DNA from: Chiridota heheva
Taxonomy: Eukaryota > Echinodermata > Holothuroidea > Apodida > Chiridotidae
DNA: 64,000 nt
NCBI GenBank assembly: GCA_020152595.1
Contig: JAIGNY010000476.1
Span: forward strand, 1,109,001 to 1,173,000
Direction: 5' to 3'
Below, piece after piece: positions 125-58,348 of this stretch; positions within the stretch are counted from its first letter, which is position 1, and each line of letters starts with the position of its first letter. A program made the translations under genes and the position numbers. Below the pieces are notes generated by a model, which was not told the DNA's origin, did no database searches, and worked only from the letters and a program-made list of their open reading frames with translations.

Positions 125-1812
125 CTTTACGGAATCACTCTCAACTCCAAACTTTCCTATCTCCCCCATATCAACAACCTCAAAACCAAATGCCACAAGA
201 TCCTCAATCTCCTCGAGGTCCTCTAAAGCACTGACTGGGGAGCAAATCTCACCCTGCTCACCTTATATCGCTCCCTCCTCAGATCCAGGCTGGACTATGG
301 CAATTTCATCTTCGCCTCTGCCCCCAAATATTACTTGGAATACCTGGAGGTCACTGAGAACTCTGCCCTAAGGCTTTGTCTTGGTGCTACTCACACCTCC
401 CCTATCACCAGTCTCCATGTCGAAGCCAACAAACTCTCCTTCAACCTCCAGTGCACGAAGGCCGGCTTCTCCTTTGCTTTCCGCATCCTCACTGATCCAC
501 GAAACCCAAGCTTCCATTCCATCCGCTCTCCCTCCTTCACCAACCTCTTTAATCTCAACAAACGCATCCCCCCACCTTTCAGGATCCGGTTGCACTCCCA
601 CTTCTCCAAAGCGCCAAAATTTCTTTTAAATTTCATTGTTACGTGTATCAATATCAACATTTTCTCGATTGCCAGACACACCACCCTACCTACACCTACC
701 TGGACTATTCACCCCCCAAGGTTTACCTTGGTCTTTCATCCTTCATGAAAGCTCTCCACAACCCAGCCTTCTTATTCCAAATACTGTCAACTCAGTAGAC
801 ATTTCCATGACTAAGTCCTTCCTCTTCACCGATGGCTCCACACGGGAAGGCTTCTCTGCAGCCGCCGCCTGTCCTGGCCTCACCCTCTCCTCAAGCTTAC
901 ATGACGGCACCTCTATCTACTCTGCCGAGGCGAAGGCCATCCTCCTAGCCTTAACTTTCATAGAACTCTCTTTCCAACCAACCCCCTCCCCAATTTCCTC
1001 ATCTTCTCTGACTCTAAATCCGTCCTCACTGGCGTCCTCAACATGCTCTGGCCCAACTCTCTCATTCTACAAATCCTCAACAAATTCCACACTCTTTCCT
1101 TCCTAGGAAAGAAAATTCTCTTTTTCTGGATTCCCAGCCATGTCGGCATCCCTGGCAATGACAGAGTCGCCATCAAAGCTCTGTCGAATAACATTTCTCC
1201 TTTTCTTATTCCACACTCAGACCTCCATCTCTCCATCTCCAACTATATCAACAAACCTGTCAAAACTCCTGGAATTACGAAACCAGTATTAAACTTCACA
1301 CCATCAAATCCAAAGTTGGGACCAACACCCCTCTGCAGTCGCAACCGCAGGGAAGACATCGTTGTCACCCGCCTCGGCCACTCCTCTCTTACTCACTCCC
1401 ATCTCTTGTCTGGCTCCCCTGCCCTCTCTGTCCCACTTGCAAGACCAATCTCTCCATCAAGCATATTTTTTTAACCTGTTCCCTATACCAGAACTCCAGA
1501 TCTCTTCTCTCCTCACTCTCCTCAATCTAGGACCTATTCGAAAACAATTCTTCCTCAAACATCAATTTCTTCCTCAACAACAACCTCTTCCACCACATAT
1601 AATCTCCCCCTGCCTCCCTTTCTACACCTTACCTTACACACCCCTTTCTTTTCACTTAGTTTTTCTCCCACATTTAGCCTTTCCTCTTTATCTCTCTTAC
1701 AAACCTTCCATCTCCTCACTGTCCTAACTCTTACAGCATAATTTATTAACACTCTCTTGGCACATTTGACTCTGACTGTTGTGGTGCCATTAAACATCAA
1801 CAAACCAAACCA
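125..1812 (+). pseudogene. 5'-truncated non-LTR retrotransposon (I/Nimb-like LINE), RT C-terminus plus RNase H
   Basis: Decayed end of a LINE ORF2. From about 128 one frame reads like the end of a reverse transcriptase: YGITLNSKL, then LLRSRLDYGNFIF near 270, then ALRLCLGATHTSP near 365. From about 810 it reads as RNase H: a TDGS motif, SAEAKAILLAL, then WIPSHVGIPGND near 1130. A trailing LTHSHLLSG segment near 1390 resembles the Cys/His tail seen after RNase H in these elements. The frame shifts several times and contains stops, so it is dead. The 3' end near 1812 is fixed by a second copy on the minus strand (32393-32925) that ends in the same sequence, including GGTGCCATTAAAC or GGTGCCGTTAAAC. 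RNase H after RT points to the I/Nimb/Loa group; the exact clade is uncertain. No promoter or first ORF is visible, as expected for a 5'-truncated insertion. Confidence 0.85.
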
Positions 1813-2085
1813 TCATCTTTACTGTATGTCAATTTCTCCATTGTGTTGAAAAAGTTGTTGGTTTAGAGTTCTGAGTGATATGCATAAATTTATCTTGAGA
1901 TGTATTGAGAAAAATATGCTTAAAGGACTTTCAAAAATGTTATTAGATCAAAGGTTTAGAGCATGTTCATCAAACAAATGAGAGGTGATGGATGGTGACT
2001 GGGAGTGTAAGGGAGGGGGGGGGGCGCAGGATCTGGAGGTAGAAACACATTGTTTGGATGATGAGAATTTTTTTAACCCTTAATG

Positions 2086-2430
2086 GACCACGCCCAGAAA
2101 AGGTACATGCACTTCACTCAATTTCAGTCCGACATGAGTTTATAGTAATCCTTGTTGGACCACGCCCAATAAGGGGACCTGCGCTTCACTCAGATTTAGT
2201 CTGACAATGGTTAATAGTAACTCTTGTTGGACCACACCCGATAAGGGTACCTGCATTTCACTCAAGTTTCATTCTGACAATGGTCAATTGTAACCCTTGT
2301 TGGACCATGTCCAATAAGGGAACCTGCATTTCACTCAGTTTCAGTTTGACAATGGTTAATAGTAATCCTTGATAGACCACACCCAATAAGGGGACCTGCG
2401 CTTCACTCAATTTCAGTCTGACAAGGGTTT
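2086..2430. repeat. Tandem repeat, ~72 bp unit, five copies
   Basis: Units begin with GGACCACGCCCAATAAGG-like sequence at about 2086, 2157, 2229, 2302 and 2374, so the period is 71-73 bp. The copies diverge by substitutions. The array lies about 130 bp upstream of a coding exon. Confidence 0.85.
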
Positions 2431-2563
2431 AAATTTGTGTTCAGGGCATGCAGTCAATGAGGGGCTTTTTACCCATTTCTGGTGCTGGGAATGCTGCTGT
2501 AACAAATAGGGTGAAATACTTATAATAACTACCAATGGTTCTTTGATGCATTTTATTTTGCAG

Positions 2564-2692
2564 ACCTGTGATAATTGCGAACGTATGAAAATGCAGATTG
2601 CAAAGAGAGATAAGAAAATTATTGAACATGAGAGCACAATTAAACAACTGATGGCGCTCTGCCAAAAGTTTGAAACCCAACTTATGCAACAG
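2564..2692 (+). CDS. Internal exon of an unidentified coiled-coil protein gene
   Basis: A 43-codon exon with a clean acceptor (TTTTATTTTGCAG ending at 2563) and donor (GTAAGC from 2693); both junctions are in phase 0. The peptide starts TCDNCERMKMQIAK and ends FETQLMQQ. It is charged, Lys/Glu/Gln rich, has a CxxC near its start and has heptad-like spacing typical of a coiled coil. It joins in frame to the terminal exon at 7176. An alternative terminal exon at 3115 is also in frame. I do not recognise the protein. Upstream exons must lie left of the window or remain unseen in 1-2563. Confidence that this is a real exon is good because splice sites, phase and amino-acid composition agree. Confidence 0.7.
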
Positions 2693-3114
2693 GTAAGCTT
2701 TTTCTTTCAAAGTTCATTATTATGTGTATCAAGGGTTGAATTACCTGATTTTTTTTTATTCATTAATATCATTTTTTTTATGAGATATAAAATGTAAGAT
2801 ACTGTGACTTGAATGGTAAAAAGGATTCAAGTGATTGTTAGATGTTAGACAATAGTTTATTAAAGCGTGGGTTGCGGAGTGGTGCAGAAATAATGTTTAA
2901 ATATGGATCAACACTCAACAGATAGTAAAAATGAATGAATGTGGATGAACGTTTGTGATCTAAACTTTTCGTCTTTGAAAGGAGTTTCAGTTTAATTGCT
3001 TTTTGCCCAGAATGTAAAAAGTGCAAATCAAAAACATTAAGTTATACGTTTTTATGTGGTAACTTTTGCTCGATTCTTGGGGTATTTTATCAGAGGAATT
3101 TCTTTTGATTTTAG

Positions 3115-3156
3115 ACGATACTGAAGGAATGTGTTGACTTGGTGAAGAAAGATTAA
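3115..3156 (+). CDS. Candidate alternative terminal exon of the coiled-coil gene
   Basis: After a good acceptor (TTCTTTTGATTTTAG ending at 3114), 13 codons in phase 0 reach TAA at 3154-3156, giving TILKECVDLVKKD. This follows naturally on the coiled coil of the exon at 2564-2692. An AATAAA lies at 3607-3612, about 450 bp further on. This would make a short isoform by using an earlier last exon. There is no transcript evidence here; a chance acceptor with a short open frame is the main alternative. Confidence 0.35.
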   Translation, partial: TILKECVDLVKKD

Positions 3157-3606
3157 ATGAAGACATGGTGAGCGACTGTTGAATCCCATTATATAGGACT
3201 ATGCTTCTTGTGATTTTACCAAACCTCCAAATACATATCCAAATCTTGCACTAAAAATACACTGAGATTGGTCGATTGAAGATGATTTGAAAAACATGTA
3301 TTGCTTGCTCTTTTCTGTTACAAGTTAGTAAAATCAAAGTGTGGTGTAGAGACAAAAATGTTGTTATGAAAATTGGAAAAATGGGTGTTTCAGAGAAGTG
3401 TCATTTGTTGATCGTGTATGTTTTACTGTACTTAATACCATTAGACAACTAGATTTGAAAATCTGCGGTTGCTTATTTAGGCATAGATTCTATAGAGTTT
3501 AACTTAGGTTAAAAAAAAAAAAAAACACCAGTATCAGAGTTTTTCAAGTCTTCTGGCAGTTAAAATAGTTTCACCTTGTTTATGTAGATGTTATTTTTCA
3601 GATTAC

Positions 3607-3612
3607 AATAAA
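3607..3612 (+). promoter_or_regulatory. Possible polyadenylation signal for short isoform
   Basis: Canonical AATAAA about 450 bp downstream of the candidate alternative stop codon. Such hexamers are common in AT-rich DNA, so the link is inference. Confidence 0.25.
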
Positions 3613-4309
3613 TGTTTATCTGTTAGAAATGTAGATTGAAATAAGTTGCAAAGATTTCCAGGATGTGGATGATTTAGGTTTTTAGGGTATTTGCAAAAAT
3701 TGATATTATAGGTGTAAAGTATTACCTATGTCCTGTTATGATACCTATTTCTAGTTCATGTCTGCCTTCAGTTGTTTGTCTTGAACTTATTCTGTTGAAA
3801 TGCTGTGGTAATTTTGGTAAGTGTGTAATCATTATTTTGGAGCATTGGGACAGTGAGTATCACACAAATGCCTTTGTTTGATTTTATTCATGTTCTTTGG
3901 ACAAAAATGATAATTTTTCTGATTTTACTCTTTTTGGTAAGCATGCGAAGCATAATGCAAACCTATGTAATGGCGAGAACATCCGGCCGGCCGGTTACAG
4001 ATTTTTAATAAGATTTTCTCAGAAATGCTAAAGTTTTTTGAGAATTCCTCAGAAAATGTTAAAGTTTCTTCAGATATCCTTATGGAAGGTTAGAATTTTC
4101 TTACAAAATGTTAAAGATTTTCAGAGACATTTAAGACAGGATTGGAGACTAGTTTCTTTAAAAAGTCTACAAAACATTTGATATATTCTTAGAAGATAAC
4201 TGTAAAATGATATAATTTTCCAATATTTTTCAGAGATCCTCAAGTCTTTCTTGTAGAACTTGAGATTTAAAATCCTTAAAATTCTTCAAAATATTTGGGC
4301 CCCAACAGC

Positions 4310-4655
4310 TGTATCAGGCATGAATATTAAACTCCACCTTTATTATTGTGGTCATTTGCATAAAGTTGCTACAGTATATGAACTGACCAAACTTTTTTAT
4401 TTAGTATGCTTAGTCAGGGAGTGTGACAGGATGTGATTGCATATGGACATAGGGAGGGATGCCATGTGGGACATGGATGGGGGCCATGAGGGACATATGA
4501 TATGATATATACCATGTGGTATACACCAAGGGCTATATCAGGCATAATTATTTGACTCCACCTTTTTTTCTTATTCAACAAGTCATTTGCATATAAGTTG
4601 TTATATGAAGTGACACTTTCATACATAGTATGCTGAATCAGGGACTGATAACTAG
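4310..4655. repeat. Diverged direct repeat pair (about 4310-4437 and 4530-4655)
   Basis: Both copies contain CTATATCAGGCAT, then ACTCCACCTTT, then GTCATTTGCATA, then TAGTATGCT..TCAGGGA in the same order. They flank the first minisatellite units, and a weaker partial copy lies near 5630-5690. They look like the flanks of a larger, duplicated repeat unit. Confidence 0.6.
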
Positions 4656-5620
4656 GATGAGACTTCTTATGGAGCCTATGGGATGTCATGTGGGACATAG
4701 GGTGGGATGCCATGTGGGACATGGGGTGGAATGCCATGTGGGACATGGGGTGGGATGCCACGTTTGACATGGGGTGGGATGCCATGTGGGACATGGGGTG
4801 GGATGCCATGTTTGACATGGGGTGGGATGCCATGTGGGACATGGGGTGGGATGCCATGTTTGACATGGGGTTGGATGCCAAGTGGGATATGGGTTGGGAT
4901 GCCATGTGGGACAGGGTAGAATGCCATGTGGGACATGGTGGGATGCCATGAGTAACACAGAGTGTGACATAGGTTGGGATGCCATGTGTGACATAAGGTA
5001 GGATGCCATGTTTGACATAGGGTAGGAGGCTATGTGGGACATTGGGTAGGAGGCCATGGGGACATGGGATGTGATGCCATGACTTTGGGACAAAGTAGGA
5101 TGTCATTGGGAGGGATACCATGTGGAACATATGGTGGGACATAAGGTAGGATGCTATGTGGGACATCAGGTGGGAAGCCACTGATGCGGGACACAGGGAG
5201 GGACACCATATGGGACATAGAGAGGGATGTCATGTGGTACATATGGTTGGATTAATTTGGGACATACATGTAGGATGGAATCCATGTGGGTCATAGAGTG
5301 GGATGCCATGTGGGACATGGTGGAATGCCATGTGGGACAAGGCATGGGATGTCATGTGGGACATGTGGGATGTCATGTGGGACATGTGGGATGTCATTTG
5401 GGACATGTGATGTGGGACATAGGGTGGAATGCCATGTGGGTCGTAGGATGGGATGCCCTGTGGGACATATGATGATATGCTACGTGGGACAAGGGATGAG
5501 ATGGGATGTCATGTGGGACATGGGATGGGATCATGCTATGTGGAAGATATGGTGGAATGCCATGTGGGACATGGGATGTCATGTGGGACATGGGATGCTA
5601 TGTGGGTCTTAGTGTGAGGT
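4440..5620. repeat. 24-bp minisatellite, regular core 4680-4960, degenerate flanks
   Basis: The core unit begins GGATGCCATGTGGGACATGG and repeats every 24 bp; about eleven regular copies lie in 4680-4960, followed by variable-length copies to about 5620. The unit is divisible by three and lacks stops in several frames on both strands. This creates long apparent open frames (for example HPMSHMAS repeats on the minus strand) that are not genes. It lies in the last intron of the coiled-coil gene. Confidence 0.95.
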
Positions 5621-5639
5621 GCCATTTTTTTAATTAGCA

Positions 5640-7170
5640 AGTCATATGATATGGATGTCAATTTGCATGGGCATGCGAACCATGACGGTATTTACTGTTC
5701 TAGTTTAGTAAAATAACAGTAAAAGTGTAGGGTGAAACTTGAACACTGTTTAAAATTCTTCATTGAGCACTTCATGGATCTAGTGTGTGATTTATGTACA
5801 TTTAAACACTATGAAACCGTACACTCCCAACCCAACATTTTTATGCTTTTTTGTACTTAATTCTTATCCAACTGTCCTTTCATTTTTCTGTCATGAATAA
5901 GCATTGAATGAATGCTGAGACGTGAAACATTTACCCTGCACTGATGTGCATGGTATGTCACTGTGATATACAAAATTATACAAAGTAGTTCATTGACTAT
6001 GCATAGTCCACAAAAATAGCCAATTATTTTGTTACTTTGCGAAATTTGGCATAAAAGACATGCAGTTCTGCTGAAAGTTGATTACAATATTGGTTGTATA
6101 TGCACAGATACATGTACAATTATTGAAAAAGTGCAGATTTCGTGCACGATGCTTGGTTCGTGGCAAAGAATAGGGCAGCTATTTGTATATTCCATTGTAT
6201 CAATGAAAAGAGTATTCCATTGGGTAAATGGGAGAGAAAAAAAGTTTTTAATTTGGATAATAGCATGCAGAGCTATGAATTAAAAATAAAAAAGTGCCAA
6301 AATGCACCACAAATCATCAAAGTTGATACATTTACCCAAAATGTAAGAAATAGGGCTAGGTATTAGCAAAATTCGATTAGATTTGAACTAGATAATTTGT
6401 CAAGATAATGGTGACTAAAAATGAAATTAAAATTCTTTTTGCAAGTGTTGTTTAATGTTTTTGGAGAAACATTTGTTTTTGGTGATTTTTTTACAAAAAA
6501 ATAAAAATTCTGCATATTTACCCATAATTTACGCAAAAAAATTCAATATAACCCCACACAAAAAAAATATATCTTGAAAGACCTAATGTAGTATGTTCAA
6601 ATGATACTAAATGCACCCCACTAGGATTTTGGTTTAGTCCCGTTTTTTTTCTTCGTCCGAAATTGGTACTTCCAAATGGGTCATGGTGCGACCGCTTGTA
6701 GTTCAAGGGTTAATATCACACAAATGCTCATGGTTGATTTTATTCCTGTTCTTTGTGGAGGAAAGAATGGAATTCAGGCCAATAAGAAAATGGAACAAAG
6801 TTGTGATCTTTGGTGTGGTGCCTGCAAGACCTTTTAAGGTGAAAATATGAATTAATGCAGGAAATGATGGAATTGCTCAGTAGCAAAACCACCACTTACT
6901 TATGCGATGGCAGCATACACTTTCAGCGACTAAAATCAAACTTCTTCCTTAGAAAATGCTCACATCAGCTTTTGCTAATAACTGAGGTTTGTTGTTGGCC
7001 ATTATACTTTTTGTTCATTTTGAAATTGATTTTTAAAGTATTGTGATTCTTTTTATGATATATTCAAAGGTTATGAAAAGAGCAGCTCTTTTGGGAAATG
7101 CCATGTTGTTATAATCTGTTGTCAATGTAAAAGTAAAATACACTCACCAAGCTTAAACATATTTTCTTCT
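5640..7170. other. Intronic stretch without recognisable features
   Basis: Last-intron sequence of the coiled-coil gene. It is AT-rich with short open frames only. I see no exon-like segment with splice sites and no clear repeat unit. Confidence 0.5.
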
Positions 7171-8574: not shown

Positions 8575-9040
8575 GATTAAAAGATAGGTTAAATAATGAA
8601 GTCACTTCTCACGTTGTTTTTCTGTTAAAAAAACTCAAAAAACTAACTAAATGAAATAAAGCTATCAAGGTAAAATAATGTGTATGAAAAATCAACAATT
8701 AAACATAACAAATTTTAAAAAGTATAGATAGGTGACTGTGAGTCTCATGAATTCACATTCTATCCTGAGGCCCCATGGTAACGTCATTTGAGGTCGCAAA
8801 TGAAATTTGTTACTGGGCACCCTGATATTTATTCACAATCATAAATACTCTAAAAGTTTACAAAAAAAAACTTGAAAATATTCTCGCAATTTTTAGAATT
8901 TTATTTGTTTAGAAACAAATTGTCCCATTGTACGTGACGTCACAATTAAAATTATTCATTCAGCAACATCAAGAAATACAATTGGCAATCAAAACCAGCA
9001 GAAAAATGGTAATCTGAACGATAAAATCAGAACATTTTTT

Positions 9041-9520
9041 GATCAGTATTGGTATATTGATGGGACACGTGATCAGTATTGGTATATTGATGGGACACGT
9101 GATCAGTATTGGTATATTAATGGGACACGTGATCAATAATGGTATATTGATGGGACATGTGATCAGTATTAGTATATTGATGGGACACGTGATCAGTATT
9201 GGTATATTGATGGGACACGTGATCAGTATTGGTATATTGATGGGACACGTGATCAATATAGGTATATTGATGGGACACGTGATCAGAATTGGTATATTAA
9301 TGGGACACATGATCAATATAGGTATATTGATGGGACACGTGATCAGTATTGGTATATTAATGGGACACGTGATCAATATAGGTATATTGATGGGACACGT
9401 GGACAGTATTGGTATATTGATGGGACACGTGATCAATATTGGTATATTGATGGGACACGTGATCAGTATTGGTATATTGATGGGACACGTGATCAGTATT
9501 GGTATATTGATGGGACACGT
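9041..9520. repeat. 30-bp minisatellite, 16 copies, E-box in nearly every unit
   Basis: Exactly sixteen head-to-tail 30-bp units, starting GATCAGTATTGGTATATTGA and ending TGGGACACGT. Each unit junction gives CACGTG followed by ATCA; variants with CATGTG or CACATG occur near 9155 and 9305. The unit is a multiple of three and is open on both strands, so the long Ile/Pro-rich open frames here are artefacts. Confidence 0.97.
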
Positions 9521-9529
9521 GACTCCATA

Positions 9530-11167: not shown

Positions 11168-12585
11168 AGGCAATGTGGTACACAGTTACCTATGAAATGA
11201 AATTACCCTTAATCTTGAATCTTCATTGAAACATTCATCGCAGGAAATGTGGTACACACTTACCTATGAAATGAAACTACCCTTAATCTTGAATCTTCAT
11301 TGAAACATTCATTGCAGGCAATGTGATACACACTTACCTATAAATGAAACTCTTCTTAATCTTGAAACATTCATCGCAGGCAGTGTGGTACACACTTACC
11401 TATGAAATGAAATTCCCCTTAATCTTGAATCTTCATAGAAACATTCATTGCAGGCAATGTGATACACAGTTACCTATGAAATGAAATTCTTCTTAATCTT
11501 GAAACATTCATCGCAGGCAACATGAGATGTACCTCCGCTTTCCGTTTAGTATGCACTGCAGCCGCCGATTTTGGCCAAAATCGACAGTTGCACATCACAC
11601 GCCTCGCCAGAGCAAGGGCAACCCAATATGATATCATTATTTGCTTGGCTTGGCGCAGCTAGGATCTGATTACATTGCCAACTCGCGCGAGTGTAATATG
11701 ATGCCTCTATCTGATGCACGTTATTAATGGCCCTATGATAGCATACTGAAAGGAAAGAGCTTGCACACTTAATGAATATGGTACACACTTAGCTATGAAA
11801 TGAAATTCCTCTTAATCTTTAATCTTCAAAGAAACATTCATCACAGGCAATGTGGTACACACATAGCTATGAAATGAAATTCCCTTTAATCTTGAATTAT
11901 TGAAGCATTTATCGCAGACAATGTGGTACACACTTAGCTATGAAAGAAATTCCTCTTAATCTTGAATAATCATTGGAACATTCATCGCAGGCAATGTGGT
12001 ACACAGTTACCTATAAAATGAAATTCTTCTTAACTTGAAACATTCATCGCAGGCAATGTGGTACACACTTAGCTATGAGAGAAATTCCTCTTTATCTTGA
12101 ATAATCATTGAAACATTCATTGCAGGCAGTGTGGTACACAGTTACCTATGAAATGAAATTACCCTTAATCTTGAATCTTTATTGAAACATTCATCACAGG
12201 CAATGTGGTACACACTTACCTATGAAATGAAATTCCCCTTAATCTTGAGTTATTATTGAAGCATTCATCACAGGAAATGTGGTACACACTTACCTATGAA
12301 ATGAAATTCCCCTTAATCTTGAGTTATTATTGAAGCATTCATCACAGGAAATGTGGTACACACTTAGCTATGAAATGAAATTCCCTTTAATCTTGAATGT
12401 TCATAGAAACATTCATCGCAGGCAGTGTGGTAGGTACACACTTAACCTATGAAATGAAATTCCTCTGAATCTTGAATCTTCATAGAAACATTCATCGCAG
12501 GCAGTGTGGTACACACTTAACCTATGAAATGAAATTCTTAATCTTAAATTATCATTAAAGCATTCATCGCAGACAATACAAAACT
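11168..12585. repeat. ~74-bp tandem satellite, interrupted once
   Basis: Units start AGGCAATGTGGTACACA and continue with TTACCTATGAAATGAAATT, TTAATCTTGAAT and ACATTCATCGC; successive starts at 11168 and 11242 give a 74-bp period. Units vary in length through internal deletions. The array is broken by a non-repeat block at about 11521-11776. Confidence 0.92.
11521..11776. other. GC-richer insertion within the 74-bp satellite
   Basis: About 255 bp with no resemblance to the satellite unit. It carries GC-rich words (GCAGCCGCCG, TCGCGCGAG) and the palindrome TTTTGGCCAAAA. The satellite resumes directly after it. It could be a small mobile insertion or the original single-copy sequence around which units amplified. 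No coding signal is seen. Confidence 0.6.
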
Positions 12586-21514: not shown

Positions 21515-22505
21515 AATTGTAATTAAAGGAGAAGTTTGGTTAAAGGATTAGTTTGGTTATAGGATCAATTGGTTAAAGGATAAGTTTGGTTATAGGATCA
21601 GTTGGTTAAAGGATAAGTTTGGTTATAGGATCAATTGGTTAAAGAATAAGTTTGGTTATATAATCAATTAGTTAAAGGATAAGTTTGGTTATAGGATCAA
21701 TTGGTTAAAGTATAAGTTTGGTTATAGGATCAGTTGGTTAAAGGATAAGTTTGGTTATAGGATCAATTGGTTAAAGAATAAGTTTGGTTATAGGATCAAT
21801 TGGTTAAAAGATAAGTTTGGTGATGGGATCAATTGGTTAAAGGATGAGTTTGTTTATAGGATCAATTGTTTAAAGGATAAGTTTGGTTATTGGATCAGTT
21901 GGTTAAAGGATAAGTTTGGTTATAGGATCAATTGGTTAAAGAATAAGTTTGGTTGTAGGATCAATTGGTTAAAGGATAAGTTTGGTGATAGGATCAATTG
22001 GTTAAAGGATAAGTTTGGTTATAGGATCAATTGGTTAAAGGATAAGTTTGGTTATTAGATCACTTGGTTAAAGGATAAGTTTGGTTATAGGATCAATTGG
22101 TCAAAGGATAAGTTTGGTTATTGGATCAGTTGGTTAAAGGATAAGTTTGGTTAAAGGATCAATCGGTTAAAGAATAAGTTTGGTTGTTTATAGGACCAAT
22201 TGGTTAAAGAATAAGTTTGGTTATAGGATCAATTGGTTAAAGGATAAATTTGGTGATAGGATCAATTGGTTAAAGGATGAGTTTGGTTATAGGATCAATT
22301 GGTTAAAGGATAAGTTTGGTTATTAGATCACTTGGTTAAAGGATAAGTTTGGTTATAGGATCAATTGGTTAAAGAATAAGTTTGGTTGTAGGATCAATTG
22401 GTTAATGTATAAATTTGGTTATAGGATCAATTGGTTAAAGGATAAGTTTGGTTATTGGATCAGTTGGTTAAAGGATAAGTTTGGTTAAAGGATCAATTGG
22501 TGGTA
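21515..22505. repeat. 33-bp minisatellite, about 30 copies
   Basis: Units read GGATAAGTTTGGTTATAGGA then TCAATTGGTTAAA. A unit start at 21611 recurs at 21644, giving a 33-bp period. Variants alternate CAATTGG/CAGTTGG and TTATAGG/TTATTGG in a pattern suggesting higher-order blocks. Confidence 0.96.
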
Positions 22506-24910: not shown

Positions 24911-25988
24911 CTAGAGATAGTTTAATATTTCTTCATGTAAAGTTACACTGGGTGCACTACCTTCTTCAACAGCACACTGCCAAGCCAAAAATTCATCCAA
25001 GACTCTCGCATCTTCAGCTGCACAAGAATCAGCATGGCTCTCAATGAGTGTCATCGAAAACTCTTTGTGACATATCGGACATTCTAAAAAGTCATCGCCG
25101 TAGTAACGATCCTCCCCTTTTTTTCTGGGTAGCCTACCACTTTCGTCTTCCTCTTCTTTTGTCGGATCTAAGCCAAATTCCTGAAAAATTTCTGGATCCT
25201 GGACCACTAATGGCTTGGAATCTTCCGGCTCTGGAGGGATGTTCTCGACGTCTGGATAACCCTCCCCATCAACCTCAAACTCATTATCTGAATTCACATG
25301 CACGGATATCCAATCTTTACTTTTCTTGCTTCCTTTTTGTTTCTTGGGTTTCCTTGCTGTAGGCGGTCCCTTCTCTTCCCAGGTTTTGTCCAAGGAAGAC
25401 AGAATCCTCCAGATTGCCCCCTTTTTGGAGCATAAAAAGATGCATCTACAAAGCTATCCTCCACAGGTTCATAATCAGATTCCTCATCACTTGAAAACAC
25501 AACATATGGGGCACCCCAACGGTTGGATCTCCTCCCCGAACCCCAATCCTCGTCACCCCCAGAATACCATTCGTGGAACTGGGGTCGATAGTTTGTGAGA
25601 TCCAAATAGCAAGGTGTTCGGCCAACTCTTACTGGGCCATACTTTCTTCTCCTCTTTGGCAGGGTGGTTGTAGATGAGGTGCTTGGTGTGTTTTCTGATG
25701 GATATGGTGTAGCTTTTATGACTGATGCTGCATTCACAACTTGTGGTCTTGCGGTTGCTACTGGAGTTTGATTTGTGCCTCTTTGTACCAGCAGATATGG
25801 GTCACTTAGCCTAGATATTGTTGCTGGTTTTGAATATTGGCCACTTGGTGTAGATAATGTGACTGGCTTTGATATACAGGTTTCCTTTCTTGTAACTGGC
25901 TGGACATTGTTTGTGACGGCTGTTAATACTGTTGGTTTACCAGAACAGACCAATAGGTGGACATTCATCTGACTGGCAGTGAAGTACT
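24911..25988 (-). CDS. XNDC1-like exon 9, end of finger 1, finger 2 and stop; one frame break
   Basis: Acceptor T-rich...GCAG before 25988. It starts KYFTASQMNVHLLVC, giving the His and last Cys of finger 1. A Ser/Thr-rich and acidic region follows (GRTPCYLDLTNYRPQFHEWY, SSDEESDYEPVEDSF). The frame breaks in a C5/T5 run on the plus strand (25417-25426). Past it, the other frame continues with KGAIWRILSSLDKTWEE, an acidic stretch and the second finger CPICHKEF...ESHADSC (about 25022-25081), ending EEILNYL and a stop. Either an assembly indel or a real frameshift allele explains this. Confidence 0.8.
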
Positions 25989-28900
25989 CTGCAAAAAAAA
26001 AAAAAAAAAAAAAAATGATTCAAATAAATTTGGTTGATCTTATATAGATTACATGTAAGGTTATATAGAGATGTCCACATCCATTTGATATATCAATTGT
26101 AAAGAAATGGTTGGAGACATACAGGGAATCAAACCTGGGATGGTAGCTTGTCAAGCAGATACTATGATTGCTAGAAATCCTTTAAAAAAACAACTTCCAG
26201 AAATTTTGGATCCTCTCCAACATTCAATGTAGAAATGACATATGGCAAGATCAAGGAATCTTGTTTTGTTTTTTTATATATAATGAATGCAATTTTCTTC
26301 AGGAACAACAAATTTTCCATGTGCACATTTGACATTTAGACACACTCGTGCCAAAAAGTTTCTCTTTAAGCCTACCCGCACCCAACACCTAAATTAATCC
26401 TGAAAACTCAGGTATGACAATTACCAACCTGACTTCCTGTTCTGTGTATTGTGTTTCCACACAAACAATGATTGTTTATCTGCCATTCCCATGCACACCA
26501 CAGTCAAGTAGCCCAAGGCTATTTGTGTGTATAAGATTACAGAAAGCCAGTGCTGAGTAATCAGGGTACTTTTGTGATTGAAATCACTCATCTGTGTTAA
26601 GTGTCTTAGTGGGAGAAATTTGTTTGCAAACTGGTGATAAAAATAGTTGTGTATTACATGATGTGTGCACTAACTGTGAATGATTGACAGACCATTTCTG
26701 CTAAGGAAAGATATTGCTTCATGCTCACAAGCTATCTACAAAGTTGTGACATCTGTGTTAGAAAATTGTTGCCATTCTTTATGTGTCAGAATGTTCCTCC
26801 AATTATTGGGAAGTTTCTGTTTATCAGGAATGTGACATCAATCTTTTTAGGTGGGTGTTTTAAGTGAGTTTCCTTAAACTTTAAAAAATTTTTTTTTTTT
26901 TCTCCACAAAATATGAGCAATTCCCATGCTCCTGTTGGACAGGATTAAGAGTATCATTGGTGAAAAAATATCTTCCCCTGCCACACTACCCACACAGACC
27001 AGTCCCCTCCCTATGCAGCTGCTCTGAATTAATTTAACTTACTTTGACAAAATGGACAACTCCTGAGATGTATTGCAGCTGATGATCCTTTGACCTGAGA
27101 GGTGGCAGTTGATGTTTGGCAGTGCAAGGCTGATGAACTAAGGCCGAGAGATTATAGAGCAATGAGAAGAAAAAGTAAGTATCTTTATCAATCTTTTTAT
27201 ACAACATTCTGAATTGTTTTCAATGAATTAAACAACCATTGAATTTTGTGTGCAATGTTTTTCTAAACATGTGAAGTGTCAAAAATCTGTATAATTTAAG
27301 CACTTTTTGTTGGTTAGATGCTGATGCGATCCCAGCGTGCCAAACATTACTTTAGCTGGTTATCAGTTAGTAGCTCATATGTTTCATCTAATAAGAGGAT
27401 AATGGATCACTATATGGAACATCAAACTTATCTCAAATTTCCTCAAGGAATGCATGAAATTCAATCAAATTCAAAATCATGCCAAAAAGTTTCTTTTTGC
27501 AACTTAAGCCCACCCGCACCTGACACCTGAGTTAATCCTGAAAACTCAGGTATGCAATTACCAACCCGACTTCCTGTTCAGTGTATTGTGTTTCCACTCA
27601 AAACAATGATTGTTTATCTGATCTGCCATTCCCATGCACACTGCAGCCAAGTAGCCCAGGGCTATTTGTGTATAAGATAACAAAGCCAGTGCTGAGTAAT
27701 CAGGGCACTTTTGTGATTGAAATCACTCATCAGTGTTACGTGCCTTAGTGGGAGAAGTTTGTTTTTAAACTGGTGATAAAAATAGCTGTGTAGCATAATG
27801 CTTGAGGTAATAATGTGCATTAAGTGTGAATGATTGACGGTCCTTTATGATTGAGACAATTATCTCACTGTGATTCATATAAAAAATGTTTAAATCCACA
27901 TCTTTCTACTAGCTTTAAAATTAAAATTAATGATGGGCCTTCGCCAACCCCATATGAACAAAACTCATTTCATTTTTGAATGCACAGGTGCAGAAATCAT
28001 ATCTACCTTTGACCCATATGAACAAAATCCATTTGTAACCTTTAACCAACTACAAAAAGAACCAACTTTCACCTTGAACAAGCTCATTTTCCCTTTTGCT
28101 CCGTACAAACAGACCCATATTCACATTGTTATTAGGACCTAAGGAGCATAGAAAATTAGAACTGAACCTCTCCTCTGATAAAAATCCTGTAAAATAGATT
28201 TCAAGTCAATAAAACAAGACTTACTTTCTTTTCCTTCGTTAGTGGCATTTGGAACATCTTATAATCATATATATGTAATTGGCAGTGGTATCTAGGTCCT
28301 AAATTTAGATTTCAGGGCACATACAAGACAGCACTTGGCCCACAGATAACTAGGATGACAAAAAACACTACAAACAATGGTGTTACATAACTCTGCCTGA
28401 CCACTTTGTGGTGAAGTATAAGAAAGACAACCTAATAAACTTTACCTTTTGGGCAATGAATCTCCCTTAAGCGCTGATGTAATAGGATGACCCTTGACCT
28501 CTGATCCAGACATCCAAACTTTGGGGGTACCACAGACTTTGTGTTGTGTGTTTGAAGATGTAATCTTGGGGTTGGATTCCTTCCCTGGACCAGAAACTGA
28601 GTGGTTCAGCCATGTTGGTTGAGTCAGATCTTCATCTATATTGTCTCCAATTTCATAATATTTTTGTTGTTCTGATGACGGAAATAACTTGCGGACGGTT
28701 TTGACCCTGATTGTGGTTGCAGCTCCGGGGTTTTTATCATTCATGATAGCAGTATAATTTGCTGTCTCTTCATGCGCTTTAGGAGTTACTGTCCCAAGTT
28801 GACTTATATGATTGTTATTGGTTGTTGCAGCCTGAAGTAATCTGCTATTCTCGCTATTTCTGACAAGTTTCTCAACTTTACAAATAGTCTGTTTTTTGAA

Positions 28901-43864: not shown

Positions 43865-45530
43865 TTCTTTTCATCTATTAAATTTCGGAATGTCTCGATT
43901 ATAAAGGAGCTGACGACTGAGAGCATATTTCTTTTAAGTCTCAACAATATTTGAACATATGTATCGTGCATGTGCGTGACGGTACTAAAAATCTTTAGAT
44001 ACGAATGTTCAAATTAATCATAATTCTTTTCTTTAAGAATAATGTAATTTTTTGACGACATGAGCATTACAAATTAGGCCTGTGTTTCTTCAAAAATTCT
44101 TCGACAAAAAAGGAGTCCTTACTGTTCGATCCGGAGCTCGGGAATTTTGGGGCATTGTCGCCCAAGCCCTCAGTAGACCCTTATACTGTCTATTATCAGA
44201 TCATGCATTGATCCATAACCCCCACAATTTTGCCCGAATTTCCTCAATTTCCAGGGGAAATTTCTCCTCTGCCTGTTTAAGTTAGAAGTTGTAACCGGAA
44301 TGCTTATTTGAGTAGATTTTAACATGAAATATTAAAATTGTCTTCTTTTCATCAATTAAAGGAGTACTACATTGTAAAGTGATGGCGGACTTACAAATTT
44401 CAGAATTTGCATGCAGACAGACAGAATGTATCCTCGAAAATTATGAATAGATCTTTTAAAATAAAGAAATGACGAGGAGGAAATGTTGATGGCCTAATTT
44501 TGTTCAAAATAACAGTCGATAACACCCAGCTATGGCAGTTTGGGGCTAAAAAAGGTTGAAAGGGGCCATCACTTCAAAATCTGGACTCTAAACATAATTT
44601 CTGGGAGGAGGAAGAGAGGATTGTGCAACACTTTCAACCCGGCCATCGCTACACCCATGCGTGATTTTTCTTTATCATGGACATTGTTGTTTTGAGTTTC
44701 ACAAGCATTATCAAATGAGTGCCTTTCAAGTTTGTCAAAAATTTTGGATCTATGTGTTAAAAATGTTCATTTTTTGATCGATTTTGATCAAATTTTCTTC
44801 TTTTCACTCAAGAATAAATGTGAAAATAAGAGTTCGACTCATTTGTTTCTAATAAGGGATATGGAATGGGGGCAGGGGTGGCGCAACGTATTTTTGATGG
44901 GGTTGGGGGTAAAATTGCTAATCGAGTTATCATTACCTATAGATAATCGATGTGCCGCCTTAGGGGCACTGCGCATGCACAGCGTGCTCCCAATAGGCGT
45001 GGGGTCCAGGGGCTTGCTTAGGGCCTTGGTGGGCGAAGCCCCGGAAACTCCTGCATTTTACATAAACAAAACCTACATGCTTAAATTCGATTAAAATTAG
45101 GAATATTTGGAATAGAAATATTACACGTTTTCATTTAGGAAACTTGATATGAATTGGCACAAGTCGACTAGAGAATCGCCCATAAGTGTACGACCAAAAA
45201 AAAAGTTAAGGATGTATCCATCACGGGAGCCATCAGTTTTTGTTTTTTGAGGGAAAGACATAAAAAAGTAAATTTCAAGTCGTTTTATTCTTAGAATATA
45301 AATTACTCTCAAACACAATTTCATGAAATTAGATAATCAGTCATGCATATTACAAGAACGTGTACATTTTCTAACAATCACATGAGAAGAACAGAAGAGA
45401 ACACAATTTTATGATCATGGATCTTAGTTTTCTTCGATATAAACAAAACATTTGTTACTTCGTAATCAAAGGAGTGAAAAAGGAATAAGCATATACTGAA
45501 GGCTTTTTCATAATGAAAATAGATTATTTT
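43865..45530. other. Non-coding stretch left of the large transposon
   Basis: No recognisable gene. Fragments with AGGGGTGGCGCAACG and GGCGTGGGGTCCAGGGGC near 44875-45030 resemble ends of short repeats, but I cannot delimit them. Confidence 0.35.
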
Positions 45531-45535
45531 ACTTA

Positions 45536-45703
45536 TAGTCTGGTTGCAAATGGCCAAAAAATGACAAGTGCTAAACATTTTGGGTACAAGTCGGGAAATG
45601 ATTTCAATTAATAGTTTAGGCGTATAAGAGTCTAAAAAAACCTGTTTCCACAAAAAAAAATCCTTGAGGTGGCCGCCATTTTGAATTTCAAAATGGCCAC
45701 CAA
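45536..45703. repeat. Left terminal inverted repeat
   Basis: Pairs with 52222-52394. Both carry TAGTCTGGTTGCAAAT at the tip and end at a GGCCGCCATTTTGAATTTC/AAAATGG palindrome. Confidence 0.85.
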
Positions 45704-46393
45704 ATAGAGCATATTTTATAAAAATATAAGTATTTTGGCATGTTTTAGGTAAGGTTAACATTGAATAACTGGTAAAAATGTTGATCTTATATGGAATAAA
45801 AAGACTTAACAAGAATCTATATGTTCAGCAGTTTGCAGTAATTTTTAAATTCAAAATGGCCGCCATTTTGCAGATAATTTGAACAGAACATATTTTCACA
45901 GTCTCTTTTAAGTTTAAAGATGATGATGGATAATAGTTCATTCATAGCTGTTACGAAATGAAATATAGAGCGTGTATTATTCAGCATTTTTTTGGAAACC
46001 TTGTCATCTTTGTTTTCAAAATGGCCCCCAAAGGTTTGTTTCTACTTCGAACTTTAGACAAAACATCAAAAAGTTGTTCCATTCAGTATATCTTAAGCTT
46101 CTCAGTATATTGAAAGAAAGTTAAGGGGGTGTATGCAAATTTGATTCAAAGTAAAATAAAACCTGGTGATTAGATCATTCGGATAAATTTGATGTTGGTG
46201 GCCATTTTAGTTCCAAAATGGCGGTATGGCGGCCATTTTTGATTTTGAAATGGATAGCTTTCATAAATTATTTCCCAAACACCATTGCTGGAAGCTGACT
46301 TCAACTGTTCAAAGAGATTATCAAAAGGAAAACATTGCTTGCTACGATATGAAAACAAAAACTCATACAAGGTATATTTGAGAAATGACTGCA

Positions 46394-49300
46394 TCATAGT
46401 ATATTCAAAGGCGAAGATTGTGGATTTTGGCAGTGCTCTGTGCATAAACATCCTCGAGTGCAGGGAACTTTCATGGAAGTACACTTGCATCTGCGTGTTG
46501 CACACCGCAAACCCTGGAAAGGACAACTGCATGATTTAAGTTCTGGCCACGTTTCTAGCATTGGGTCCACTGTGAGAAGGCGCGGTTTCAGGATTCCATC
46601 TATTGTAAGAAACCAGCCGCCCTCCTCTGGAGATGGTAGTGATGGATTTTGTTCAAGAGCCATCTCCCATACATATGGCTGGTAATGGGCTCTTCTAATG
46701 TGCAGATGTAAAGCATCTGCAGTAGGTGGTAGTAACTCAACACTTTTTTTCACCTTGTGAAAAAATGCACTTCTGATTTCTTGTATTTTACTTGATTCAG
46801 TAGATGGATCATACAATTTGCAAACAAATGCTTCCGCATCAGACATAGCCTTTTTATCAAGAACTTAACTTCACCTAACCGCTCAAGCAGTTGTGGGTGC
46901 TTTACAAATTCCTTCCACGCCGATTTTTTGCCTTTTTTTAAGCAAATTGGCTCGTTGTGTCACTGCCTGTAAGGGCATGAAATGCAAGCAATGATGCTCT
47001 TGCCTTGTTATCAATTTGGATTTGATGAACAGGAATGAAAGATTGTTTTTTTGCTGTCCCCCCTTGCATCCACACTTGTTGACATAGGTTGGGCATATGA
47101 TATACAAGAAGCACCAACACATCAGTATCACGGCATACAATATTAAGTAGTTGAAATCCTGAGTTCTTTGCATCTTGAGCATGAAGTAGGATACGCGTGT
47201 CAGCCTCCTCGTGGTTTGATTGCAGATTTGACACATCTCTGCCAGACGAAGACCATGCCTCATCTGAGTTTAAGAAACCACCGCCAAGAACCAGCTCCTT
47301 GTTGGGATCTTCACAGGGATGATTTATCATTTGTGTGCAGAAAAAGTTTGCTAGGCTTTCTTTGTTTTTCCCAAATGTAATGAATTTTTCCCAGTTGCCA
47401 ATTTTCTGATCTCTGCTGGTTACTCTGGTTTCTATCCCCTTGTTTTTTCCACCTTGCACGCTTGTTTCGTGTACCACCTTTAATGGAGTCGTCCAGATAT
47501 CGATCAAAAACAATGTCCACCCTGTTGCATGTCTCAGAAAAATGTTTGTAAATTGACTTTCGAAAGTTGTCACACCATTCACCAAAGTTTTTTGCTCCTA
47601 TATGATTGCCAAGAGACTAAATTACTGCCATAGCATCCACAATAGTACATGTAGGACTGTTGCTGACTGGTGGTAGATTCTGAGCTTTACCTTGATCTAA
47701 TATTTTGCCTAGATCTGATTTACTTGATGGATATCTCAGCTTTTTATCAACAGTTGCTATTGATAAAGGCACAGGTGAGAGTTCACGTTACAGCAACCCA
47801 TCTACATCAACTTCACGTCCAGCATCTAATGCAACAATCACTTGACGTAAAAGATTGATGCGTGCCTTGGTAGTGGTTGTTTTTACTTTATCCACATTTA
47901 CAGTATGACTGTACATTGGACCAAACGTGTTAAGTTTCTGTCTTTTGATTTTATCATGGAACTTTGTTGTCTCTTTGATGAGTCTGTCATTCACAAAGTC
48001 GTGTATTAACTTCTTTCCTGTTTTCTCTGCTTTCACAAAGTCATTCTTCACATCAGTACTGGCAACATCTCCTGTGGTGATTGATATCAGGTCTGGCGAA
48101 TCATTGGAAAATACATCAAAGCCTTCAAATTCTTGAACAAGTTGTGTGATATCTTTTTGATCTCTTTCCATTCGCTTAGGTCCCAGATCTTTATGTTGCA
48201 AATCTGTCTCATTCGCCACATGATACATTTTCTTTGTGTCTTCGGCGAGCTGAGCCCGTTCATTGTATGTAAGACACCAACGTTCTCGTGCTGAATCTGT
48301 GCGGGTGATGCCAACTAAACCACCGGCAACTTTGCCCCGTTTGTTGATATGCTCAAGTGCTTGGCCATCAGGGATTTGATTGAATCTTTGTGAAGTTTCT
48401 TTAGTACCGAAGTCACCATCTGCAAAGCCTTGGTAAACCTCTGGTGCTGTCTCCTGTAGCATCTTCATATCTGCTAGAAAAATCATACCCCACCTGGTGT
48501 AAATAACATGGTCAAAGAGAGCAAACCAGGGTAATATTTCAGCTAGTGATGAAAGGTATAGCGCCCAGTCTCCATCTCGAAGAGCACGGGTAAATCTCAG
48601 AAGAATAGTAACAAGATACATATACTTCCACCAAAATTGGAATGTTGTTAGGTCCTTGTGGTCAGCATCAAATTCATCAAGAAGTGTTGATATGGGTACA
48701 ATATCTCCAATGAATAATGCCAGTGTCGATTTTATTTGCTCATCATCATATTTGGAAAACCCTTCAATACTCTTCCCTGCTGTTTCTCTCAACTTGCTTC
48801 CTAACTCCTTCTCATTCTCTTGTGCCCAATCAATAAACTTTGGCCAAAGAATTGTCCAAAGTGCTTCAAGTGCAAGTTTATGTGCACGTATAACTTTTTT
48901 CCACACCTCTCCTTTGAGAATATTCTCTGTTGTGTTTTCTCCAAATACTCCACTCTCTACCTGTATATCATTGAGACCAGCTCCTTGCATGAACTGACCA
49001 ATCACTTTTGAAAAATTCATCTGTGTGTGTGGAAGCCTCCTAACATGATAACAAAATCTTTGCAATCTTCCAACTTCTCCCATTGAAGCATTTTAGCTTT
49101 GTTGTAGAGTGCTTCATCAAAGGTAATTATTGTGTATGTTGCATTTAGTTTCTTTGTCATTGCTTGACATTTTATCATCACTGTCCAAATCGTGTCATAA
49201 TCATCAGCAGGAGCATTGATTATTGGAAAAGGCCCAACTTCAGTTTGTGGCAACTTATTCTTTAACACTTTCTGGTTGAATCCACTCCAGCAGTCCAGGC

Positions 49301-51235
49301 AGGTTCTTGTTGGTTTTCCTGATTTTCTTGTCGCAAAAGAATCCATGTCATGTCCATGCAGAATGCTTTGGCTATCGTTTCCTTGTCTGGGTCGTACCAA
49401 GTGAGCTGTACATCTTTTGGCATCACTGGTCCTAGTTTGGCTGCAAGCATGTTTGAGTTTTAAAGCTCACTCATTTCTGATGGAAGACTTGTTTTGGATC
49501 TGTTGGATCTTAGCTCAACATTTATTTCTCTTTTTGGCTCATTTGGTGCTTTTTTGCGAAGAGCCACATATTGTGTTGCATAAAAAGTGTCCATACCACT
49601 GAGTGTTTCTTCATTGATATCGATATTGTCGTCTGCATAACGGACATATCCACAATTTTCCCAAGTGGTAAAATTACGTGGTATCATCACTTTTCTATGG
49701 CCATTGTAACGCTGAAGAGCATCATCGGCAATGGCTTTGTCAATCTGAATAACATGCTCATAGCTGATAGAATGACCTGTTGCATGGAGAAATTTTATGA
49801 GCCCTTTTGACCTCGTGGCCTGGTGAATAGTAACGCCAAGGCCGATATGCTTTGGTGTTAGTTTCTGCCCTTCAGAAGCAAGAAAAATGATGTCTTGACA
49901 AATACTGAGAATTTTCGTTCTAAGAGCATTTTTCTTTTGACTCTCATTTTCAACATCAAACACATCTTCATTGCAGAGAAGACGAATAAGAAAGTAAACA
50001 TTATCTGGCACCACCATCTGCGCATGCTCCTCATCAATTCCTCCAACGAAGTCATGACTAGCTGTAGCTTCAATGTCCCGACGTAGTTTTACAGCCACTT
50101 TAAAAATCCTGCTTAAAATATCAGTGTCGTCATTTTCTGCTTGGTTACTCATAGAAGCCTCACAAACATCTAGTCCTTGCACCTCTGTTATATCTTCTAC
50201 AAATCTTTCCATAGCCATATCTTGAGCCAAAGAAGGACAGACTAGCTGCGGATCTGTAGCACACAAGGTTTGAACAAAAATCACATTATCCCTAAGATAC
50301 CTCTGTATTTTCTCCTTGAACCTATTACTTCTGTAAACTTCTGAAACCATTGCAAAATCTGTGAGAAGCATATAAGAATATTGTTCCCAAATGCTTGTTA
50401 ATGTATAAATGTGTCCTTGAGCAACACTTTTTTCAAGATCAGCCATTACATTTTCAAAGCAAATTGTTTCGGGAATGTTATCTTGGTTTTCTTTAAGCTT
50501 ACTGTGCTTCTTCAAAATACATGTATAACAATTCAAATGATACTTGGCCTCTGCAGCTATAAGATTATGTACTCCAGCTAATCTGTGTCTCATTACGCTA
50601 TCAAACTGAGCGAGGGTCAGGATTTTTCTGATGTTGGGAAAGTCTGAACTTGACGTAAATGAAAGTAAGGTATATCGTCCTGGCAGTACATGCACTTGTT
50701 CCAGTCTACAGAAGGCAGCGATAATCTTCTCGATCTTGGTGAATTTCATCCATCTTCCAGGGGACTTGACTCTCCAGATGAAATGGTAATATTTCGCTGA
50801 CCTTTGCTCTTGAGACGATTGATGTAAACTTGGTTTGTAAATACGTTATAGCAGGGTCTATGCCAAAGAACATTTTTGTCAGTTTCCCGTAGGTTGACTA
50901 TTTTCAAACGGCCTAGTGCGTCTATAAACTTAGTGTCATTGTATTTCTCTCTTTCCAGGGCACTTTCAATTACTCGGGTAATTCCTTCTGGTGTAGCCGC
51001 TGACAAAGGATGTTTTTTTCTTAGAGAGCCTAACCTCTTGACACAAGATGCAATTTTCCCACTCAATTTCAGACTCTGTCACTCTTTTTCTGATTAAAGC
51101 TGTAGACTCCAGCTTAATAATTCTGGAGGGAAAGTTGAAAGATGTTTTACTCCCTTTGTAAGAAACCAAACTGATGTATTTTGTCAAATGTAGGATACAT
51201 ATGCAATCATAAGATTTAACAAGGCACTGGTCCAT
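46394..51235 (-). pseudogene. Transposase of the large DNA transposon, frame-broken
   Basis: Order on the minus strand: an N-terminal CILCQE Cys pair and WHRPCYNVF (50746-51235). A 429-residue open segment follows (49460-50749) with VHNLIAAEAKYHLNCYTC, HIGLGVTIHQATRSKG and LHATGHSISYEHV. Next is a segment with TYTIITFDEALYNKA and LGGFHT (49017-49450). A 431-residue segment follows (47788-49083) with QMNFSKVIGQFMQGAGL, ALRDGDWALYL, YTRWGMIFLADM and GGLVGITRT. Then comes a nuclease-like segment (46938-47585): EEADTRILLHA, CRDTDVLVLL, FHALTGSDTTS, with GKKSAWKEF in the next frame. The C-terminus (46394-46846) holds LPPTADALHLHIRRAHYQ and a Cys-rich tail (CSC..GLRCATRRCKC..PCTRGCLC). I recognise this as a repeat-borne invertebrate family often annotated as uncharacterised. 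At least five frame breaks, several in simple runs. Confidence 0.8.
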
Positions 51236-52221
51236 GGGTTAAACCAATGAAAAATTGAGTGGTATTAAAATGATTTTGAAAAGCTTATTAGAACAAAAAT
51301 AAAAAGGAGGACAGGGATACAAATTTCAGACAAATACAAGTTGTTATTGCCCAGTCGTACCTCTATCTATAACATACACTCAGTCCCTCCCCTCCATGAA
51401 ACCTTTGTTAAAGTAACATACTAACCAAATGTAAGATATTTTGAAAACATGTTCAAACAAACGGCCATGTACAATTTCTAAGGTGTATATACTCATTGCT
51501 GGCAGTTTGCTAGTAAATCTAACATTGTCAGATTAAATTAAATTGTAGTTAGGTCTCGGATTATTGTCTTAAGGTAAATCAGGCATGCATTTGATGGTAA
51601 TCTCCTACTTAATGCAAATTTATATGAATACAGTTATATTCTTAAGTATTTTACATTTGTCGTGGAGCTGATATATGTAGGTACAAACAATAACACTGAA
51701 CATGATGTTTTACCTTGTTAGCGAATAATTTCGATCTGAACATACATAAAACATATTTTCTATATTCATTTGACATGTTTAACAAACCTAGCCTTGCACC
51801 TATCTTTAAAAATGCAGATATCTTACCTCTATTTTGCATTAATCTTGATAGCACATGTGTGTGACATATATTACTGCAGCAGTGCTAAAATGTCTGTCAC
51901 ATGGTTGCCAGATGCATCTGATATAAAACTATCAAAATTTTGCAAACTTAGGAGTCAATTAAATTGGTTGGAAAATTGTTCAGTTAGAAGTAAAAATTGA
52001 AAATATATTTTTATATTATTTCTGACAATTTATTATGGCGGCCATTTTGATTTTCTTAATCGCCATTTTGTTTTTCTAACTGATCGCCATTTTTAAATAA
52101 ATGAGAAACATCTAAAATGGTCTTATAAAGTCATCTACCATAGAAAAGCTCACATAATACCCACAATAGTCCTGTATCTAACGTAAAAGTTGAGAGAATC
52201 TATATATACTATGTTCAATAA

Positions 52222-52394
52222 GACGACCATTTTGAAATTCAAAATGGCGGCCAAAGAAAAAAAATAGAAATGGAAACAGGTATTTTTGTAATCTCCTATA
52301 CCTATTTTATCTATATGGACCTGTTTCCAGCTTGTACCCAAAATGTTTAGCAAACCGATATAGAAGCATCTTTTTGCTATTTGCAACCAGACTA
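52222..52394. repeat. Right terminal inverted repeat
   Basis: Inverse of the left end, with substitutions and a few short gaps. The tip is ATTTGCAACCAGACTA, followed directly by the TTA duplication. Confidence 0.85.
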
Positions 52395-52399
52395 TTATA

Positions 52400-53760
52400 C
52401 CATCTGTCAGTCTGTCAGTAGAACCGTGAGATTAGTTGGTAAATTTACAAGCTGGTCGGTAATCTCTTTCTATGTACACCGACATATCTACTTAAAGGAC
52501 TATGGACAGCTAGCAGATTTAAGATATGTGAAATTCCGAGTAAACAGTCTTTACAATTTGTAAAAAGCTTATTTAAAGAAATATTTCGATGGATTTTCAT
52601 TTTTTCATAAATGATAAAGACAAATATCAGAAAAAAGTGCCGAACACAACCATGTCAACATCTTATTCCGTTTAGAAGTTACGAAAGTGGGCAACATCTG
52701 TGATGTCATAGAGACAATTTCAACAAAACATCTTTTTGTATTTCTTTAAAACTGATTTGGATTTTTTTTATTGTTGTAAATGTGATGTACACCAAGAAAA
52801 AAACAAAATGTTTTCTTGTAAATGATATAATCCACCCTATCTCTCTTATGAACCGAAAATGCAGTTCTATAATGTAAAAAAAAAAGTGTGATTAAATTAA
52901 TAAGAAATACATAAAAACTGTGCTGGAATTGACTTGATGACATCACCAAGCTGACAGACATATACAGTACGAGGTGTTTTTAAGAACATTTCTCTACTCT
53001 TTAAATTGTTATAACTTCTAAATGGAATAAGATATTAACGTAGTTTTTTTTCACAACTTTGTTTCTATAAATATTCTCTATCATATATGAAAAAATGAAA
53101 ATCTATGGAAATATTCCTTTAATGTTCAAGTTATGACGAAACAAAGTTTCAAGATTTGTTCATTTGTGCAGAAATTGTGATGTAGTATATGAGGAACACA
53201 CAATCTTTATGTAGTTCTTTAAATTCTGTTCTTCAAATTCAGCTACTTGTGAATTTCAGAATGTCTGTTCTAGACTCATGATGATTTGGGGTATGACCAA
53301 GTTCTGAAAGCAGTTGTCTGAAGTCAACTGCTATTATTATAAACAACATTGACAGAGGAATAAAAACAAAGGCTTTACAAAAGTTGAAAGATTTAAGTTC
53401 CCTTTGATATATATGGTATTGCGCAATAACAGCTAAAACTTGAAGATACAGTAACTGTAAATTGGTCAATTTTTAATTAATTTTGATGTAGTTTTTTGCT
53501 ATTTTATGGTTTAAACCATATATTAAACAAATTAAGCATATGTTGCCTGTATTTGTACAAAGTCGTTTAAAAAATGAAACAGAAAGCTCGCATTAAAAAA
53601 TTGCTGTGGGAAAAATTGTACGTAAAATGAAAAAGAAAATAATGTAATTATAAAAAAGGCACCAATAAGTTGTGTCTACATCTATGTTACTGATCAAATA
53701 TTCAACGTTTATAGTTTGATAACCCATGATAAGAATTTCTTATTGAATGAGCTAAGCTGC
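52400..53760. other. Non-coding stretch between the two DNA transposons
   Basis: AT-rich; only short open frames and no recognisable repeat boundary. Confidence 0.4.
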
Positions 53761-58140: not shown

Positions 58141-58146
58141 AGGTGT

Positions 58147-58348
<202 letters not shown>

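Follow-up and report, generated by a model that had tools for sequence, protein, structure and literature searches.

Academ transposons have terminal inverted repeats. Two lineages are described in PMC10045372, which points to Kojima (2020) as the source of AcademX: AcademX has target-site duplications of 3 or 4 bp and a nuclease, and AcademH has duplications of 9 or 10 bp and a helicase. Among molluscs, as far as the account in PMC10294476 goes, Academ is almost restricted to bivalves, for which a curated library contains 100 full-length consensus sequences with a mean length of 5,565 bp. An earlier reading of the present locus, made from its sequence only (hereafter the sequence-only reading), had held that the family is seldom delimited with its ends, a claim that this library, as described, does not support.

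The locus lies in a 64,000-nucleotide stretch of the genome of the holothurian Chiridota heheva, which we call the window. The features of the element are as follows, in window positions:

45533 to 45535, unstranded: left target-site duplication, TTA (single TTA at the four paralogous empty sites read)
45536 to 45720, plus strand: left terminal inverted repeat, outer 16 bp perfect (first 16 bases identical in 20 of 20 copies)
46399 to 51078, minus strand, approximate: transposase coding region, a single frame in the family, broken in the window copy (21-copy alignment, frame 1317 to 5996 of the reversed element, mapped by offset)
46424 to 46537, minus strand: C-terminal cysteine-rich stretch, CXC-like (Pfam TCR, E = 0.32, below cut-off)
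46930 to 47650, minus strand, approximate: XPG/FEN nuclease-like region with IVDAMA, VDIVFD, HEEADTR, DTDV and TGSD blocks (acidic blocks in order; weak statistics)
47617 to 47619, minus strand: in-frame TAG at element position 4776, common to 14 of 21 copies (21-copy alignment)
48278 to 49378, minus strand: DUF6589 region, probable DDE/RNase H core (mapped by offset from sister copy L059; residues 385 to 751 of its translation, P0001)
52203 to 52394, minus strand: right terminal inverted repeat (alignment with the left end)
52395 to 52397, unstranded: right target-site duplication, TTA (sequence and empty sites)

Ends, target-site duplications and sister copies

On reading the sequence, we found a DNA transposon of 6,859 bp (window 45536-52394) flanked on both sides by TTA; TAGTCTGGTTGCAAAT begins the element at 45536, and its complement closes it at 52394. 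The inverted ends and the perfect 3-bp duplication (45533-45535 and 52395-52397) claimed by the sequence-only reading are thus confirmed. Its estimate that the ends are inverted over about 170 bp holds for length (about 185-192 bp), although the identity is imperfect: positions 1-185 of the left end and 1-192 of the right end agree at 135 of 195 aligned positions (69%, 13 gaps, E = 2e-17), with a perfect inverted match over the outer 16 bp. A partly palindromic, GGCCGCCATTTTGAA-like motif occurs in several unevenly spaced copies near both element ends (window 45664-46274 and 52030-52268), and these copies are possibly candidate protein-binding sites.

When the window flanks were joined with one TTA, they gave 25 matches in the genome, two of which are the window's own flanks and 14 of which span the junction by query range. 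All four paralogous empty sites that were read, picked among the better matches, have a single TTA at the junction, and they show directly that the insertion duplicated 3 bp. The insertion site itself (window 45420-45535 and 52398-52520) lies in an older interspersed repeat: its joined flanks match 23 other places at 68-95% identity. Since 14 matches extend across the junction, the element inserted into a repeat that was already present.

Elsewhere, the window contains long tandem arrays (58146-58346, 21536-22501, 9040-9522 and 11168-12577), including about 100 copies of TA and units of 33, 30 and 74 bp. Two open frames of 180 and 241 codons overlap on its minus strand at 24911-26019 and are perhaps exons of a host gene; one of them includes a finger-like motif, CPIC...H...C.

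The 1.1-Gb host genome was searched with the terminal 200 bp of the element on either side, as the sequence-only reading had proposed, and 40 matches were scored for each (of 181 candidates for the left end and 172 for the right), at 94-100% identity. Pairing among the scored matches yielded at least 26 copies with both ends, 20 of which were fetched. The ends of these 20 were set by alignment to the window ends, so a duplication exactly there is independent support: the 3-bp duplication is exact in 18 of the 20 and has one mismatch in the other two, and one copy also has a 4-bp match at its flanks. A 21st copy, picked for its long open frame, has an AAA/AAA duplication, which brings the exact duplications at identical ends to 19 of 21, with varied sequence. 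Every one of the 20 copies has TAGTCTGG as its left end, and the complement stands at the right end in 19, with one base change in the remaining copy. Different boundaries in other copies, which the sequence-only reading had named as a reason to abandon its delimitation, were not found among the 20 copies aligned, all of which keep the same ones. The left-side trinucleotide is of 12 kinds among the 20 copies, with A as its last base in 15, and therefore TTA is not required by the element. Divergence from the majority sequence in the 21-copy alignment is only 0.5-3.3%, suggesting that the movement of these copies was fairly recent.

Exact matches to the 16-base end number 124 in the genome (58 on the plus and 66 on the minus strand), against none for the reversed control, which argues that the inverted ends are not a matter of chance. 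Among the first 100 of these 124 places, 84 form 42 convergent pairs of 4,113-7,001 bp, 34 of which fall at 6,700-6,900 bp, and 16 are unpaired.

The transposase and its superfamily

The family frame, on the minus strand of the window, comprises about 1,560 codons, and two in-frame stops are present even in the majority sequence of the 21 copies. Relative to that majority, the window copy has five in-frame stops and six frameshifting indels. Thus, the single long transposase region described by the sequence-only reading exists as a family frame and is broken here, and the transposon it called complete is so at its ends but not in its gene. The window copy is not autonomous, judging from its present sequence, which cannot encode the protein. 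No intact gene, and hence no intact source copy, was seen among the 21 copies read, which have 0-9 in-frame stops and 2-22 frameshifting indels each relative to the majority. The longest open family frame among the matches listed is the 1,212-codon frame of L059, translated as P0001.

Residues 385-751 of P0001 match the Pfam family DUF6589 (PF20231; E = 7.2e-07), at 28.7 bits narrowly above the cut-off of 27. Fragments of the window copy matched nothing in Pfam above cut-off, DUF6589 included, and the window copy is absent from the 27 DUF6589 places listed in the host genome, 26 of which are above cut-off. No DUF6589 match was obtained in 14 control genomes, a zero that is weakly informative because the controls include archaea and perhaps no animal. 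Our literature search found no paper that names DUF6589. We regard it as the probable DDE/RNase H core of the transposase; the DDE triad was not located, and the two predicted structures were of insufficient quality for a fold comparison (mean pLDDT of 32.2 for a window fragment and 41.8 for L062 with window rows).

Relatives of the protein also occur beyond the family. At least 21 further, diverged loci (32-48% identity) are present in the host genome, which therefore has several related families. One of the 27 DUF6589 places, L061, is a distant relative above the DUF6589 cut-off; its open frame (L061:228-5552, minus strand) runs to 1,774 codons and has the regions in the same order. L062 is below that cut-off (16.8 bits) and L060 has no DUF6589 match, yet both still align with P0001. 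Two relatives came from bacterial assemblies, namely a planctomycete bin (L062:1-4401) and a Bathymodiolus gill symbiont assembly (L063:926-1470), and both are probably contaminating animal DNA. No relative was found in the viral contigs scanned.

Downstream of the DUF6589 region, P0001, L060, L061 and L062 share IVD(G/A)MA-, VDIVFD-, HEEADTR-, DTDV- and (T/S)GCD-like blocks in the same order, with substitutions in, for example, L061 and L062. The last acidic block is gone from L059 through a frameshift and reads TGSD in the window fragment. In our reading, these five blocks represent the acidic residues with which FEN/XPG nucleases bind metal. Statistically, the correspondence is weakly supported. 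A profile of four sequences matched only Exonuclease 1 chains in the PDB, at the last block (the GCD motif; E = 0.54-0.56), and a profile of three sequences matched first YacP, a PIN-like protein, at the first blocks (E = 0.46) and then unrelated chains (E of 1 and 1.9). Comparison with an archaeal FEN-1 profile gave 0.1% probability with the last block in register, single-protein sequence searches of the PDB gave only chance-looking matches, and the Pfam XPG_I model had five matches in the genome (four above cut-off), none within the transposon family. The C-terminal likeness to XPG/FEN nucleases is therefore weak, with the blocks in order and the similarity below statistical significance. 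Cysteine-rich tails similar to that of the window element also occur in L060, L061 and L062.

Taken together, the 3-bp duplication, the nuclease-like region and the lack of a helicase match the description of AcademX, so that the Academ label given by the sequence-only reading is probably right. We consider it highly likely that the element is a cut-and-paste DNA transposon, belonging most likely to the AcademX lineage. The architecture (3-bp duplication, DUF6589 core and XPG/FEN-like motifs) favors the label, which is unproven because the nuclease similarity is below significance and the comparison was made with the printed description.

It is improbable that the element instead represents a separate, undescribed superfamily whose PIN/FEN-like tail and 3-bp duplication resemble those of AcademX by convergence only. 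Such a reading would accommodate the unknown function of DUF6589, the silence of the literature found about it and the weak nuclease link, but the architecture together with the duplication fits the AcademX description (PMC10045372), and Academ is frequent in bivalves according to the account in PMC10294476. Another superfamily with 3-bp duplications is still less probable. PIF/Harbinger, whose duplications are restricted to TWA-like trinucleotides, is suggested above all by the TTA at the window site, which is the left-side trinucleotide in four of the 20 copies in all, and by the preference for a final A. However, the sister copies also have TCT, CAT, CAA, GTA, AAA, CTT and other duplications, so PIF/Harbinger was rejected on the 12 different left-side trinucleotides, which are not TWA-restricted. 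In addition, no piece searched, whether from the element or from its relatives, matched a Pfam model named for any other transposase superfamily, a match that by the sequence-only reading would have spoken against its label. CACTA/EnSpm elements, with CACTA/G-type termini, were rejected from the left end common to the 20 copies, and AcademH from the 3-bp duplication and the absence of a helicase Pfam match in any piece.

For an Academ-type transposase, we would expect the protein to bind the inverted ends and its central RNase H-like DDE core, in the DUF6589 region, to excise the element and insert it at a target whose strands are cut 3 bp apart, after which gap repair would produce the 3-bp duplication. 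At the ends, the C-terminal XPG/FEN-like region would probably trim or cut flaps or the second strand. We observe both the ends and the duplication, and the cutting and joining chemistry is drawn by analogy from DDE transposases in general.

Shared stops and probable movement in trans

Some stops in the family frame are shared among copies. Besides the TAG at element position 4776, a TAG at 3432 is present in 11 of the 14 copies with the former stop, and a TAA at 4605 in nine of the 21. In a midpoint-rooted tree, of which we used the topology alone, the 14 TAG-4776 copies group together, apart from the seven that keep CAG at this position; those seven are also broken. The other two stops map less cleanly: L039, L040 and L053 are inside the TAG-4776 half without the TAG at 3432, and one of the copies with the TAA at 4605 (L055) is outside it. 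The 14 copies lie in different places with different flanks, and 12 of them have an exact 3-bp duplication. They are thus separate insertions, which most simply postdate the appearance of the stop, and a stop common to independent insertions is most easily explained if other copies supplied the protein that moved them. A lineage with a dead coding region, including the window copy and most of the sister copies read, has thus probably been mobilized in trans, although partial proteins from stop-bearing copies may be active.

Selection on the gene left no visible signal in these data. The fixed differences that separate the halves of the tree have no third-position excess (22, 18 and 18 by codon position; p = 0.76), so purifying selection is not visible in them. 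Changes confined to single copies are slightly uneven in the dead half (225, 171 and 178; p = 0.011), and number 109, 89 and 124 in the other half (p = 0.057).

We think it very unlikely that readthrough or splicing bypasses the shared in-frame stops, or that they mark the boundary between two protein products, with the copies being autonomous. The stops are indeed present in copies that spread. However, the codon at position 4776 encodes Q in the seven other copies and that at position 3432 encodes W in seven copies, both within conserved stretches; each of the 14 stop-bearing copies carries one or more additional in-frame stops; and no copy among the 21 has fewer than two frameshifting indels relative to the majority. 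Movement in trans therefore remains our preferred reading, and the half of the tree marked by one stop would preserve the history of a DNA transposon that lost autonomy and yet kept moving.

Non-autonomous short derivatives, for which the sequence-only reading had proposed a search, were not seen among the first 100 of the 124 exact-end places, where the shortest pair measures 4,113 bp. Because this search used exact 16-base ends only, diverged short copies could be missed; the at least 72 coding-region places of the family, set against the 124 exact ends, count against a large hidden population of them. It is conceivable, if rather doubtful, that most of the spread of the family is by full-length copies with a dead coding region, moved in trans and leaving no short derivatives, and that internal sequence or a certain minimum length is required for transposition. 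In any case, the seeming absence of short derivatives is an oddity that can be tested.

Comparison with described transposons

Overall, apart from its stop-bearing lineage, this is an ordinary transposon of a group already known in animals and catalogued in bivalves. Being delimited by its ends, its duplication and its empty sites, the family offers a clean reference for Academ-type annotation. Typical transposons with terminal inverted repeats yield miniature elements; this family seemingly has none, though the ends alone should suffice for movement. AcademH belongs to the same superfamily by name and differs in its longer duplications (9-10 bp, against 3 bp here) and in its helicase, for which we found no match. 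The Academ families of bivalves, compared by description, are likewise long elements, with a mean of 5,565 bp (PMC10294476) against about 6.8 kb here. The closest likeness, by description only, is with AcademX, which shares the 3-bp duplication, the inverted ends and a single long protein that includes a nuclease-like region, and from which the window family differs in that its nuclease homology lacks statistical confirmation.
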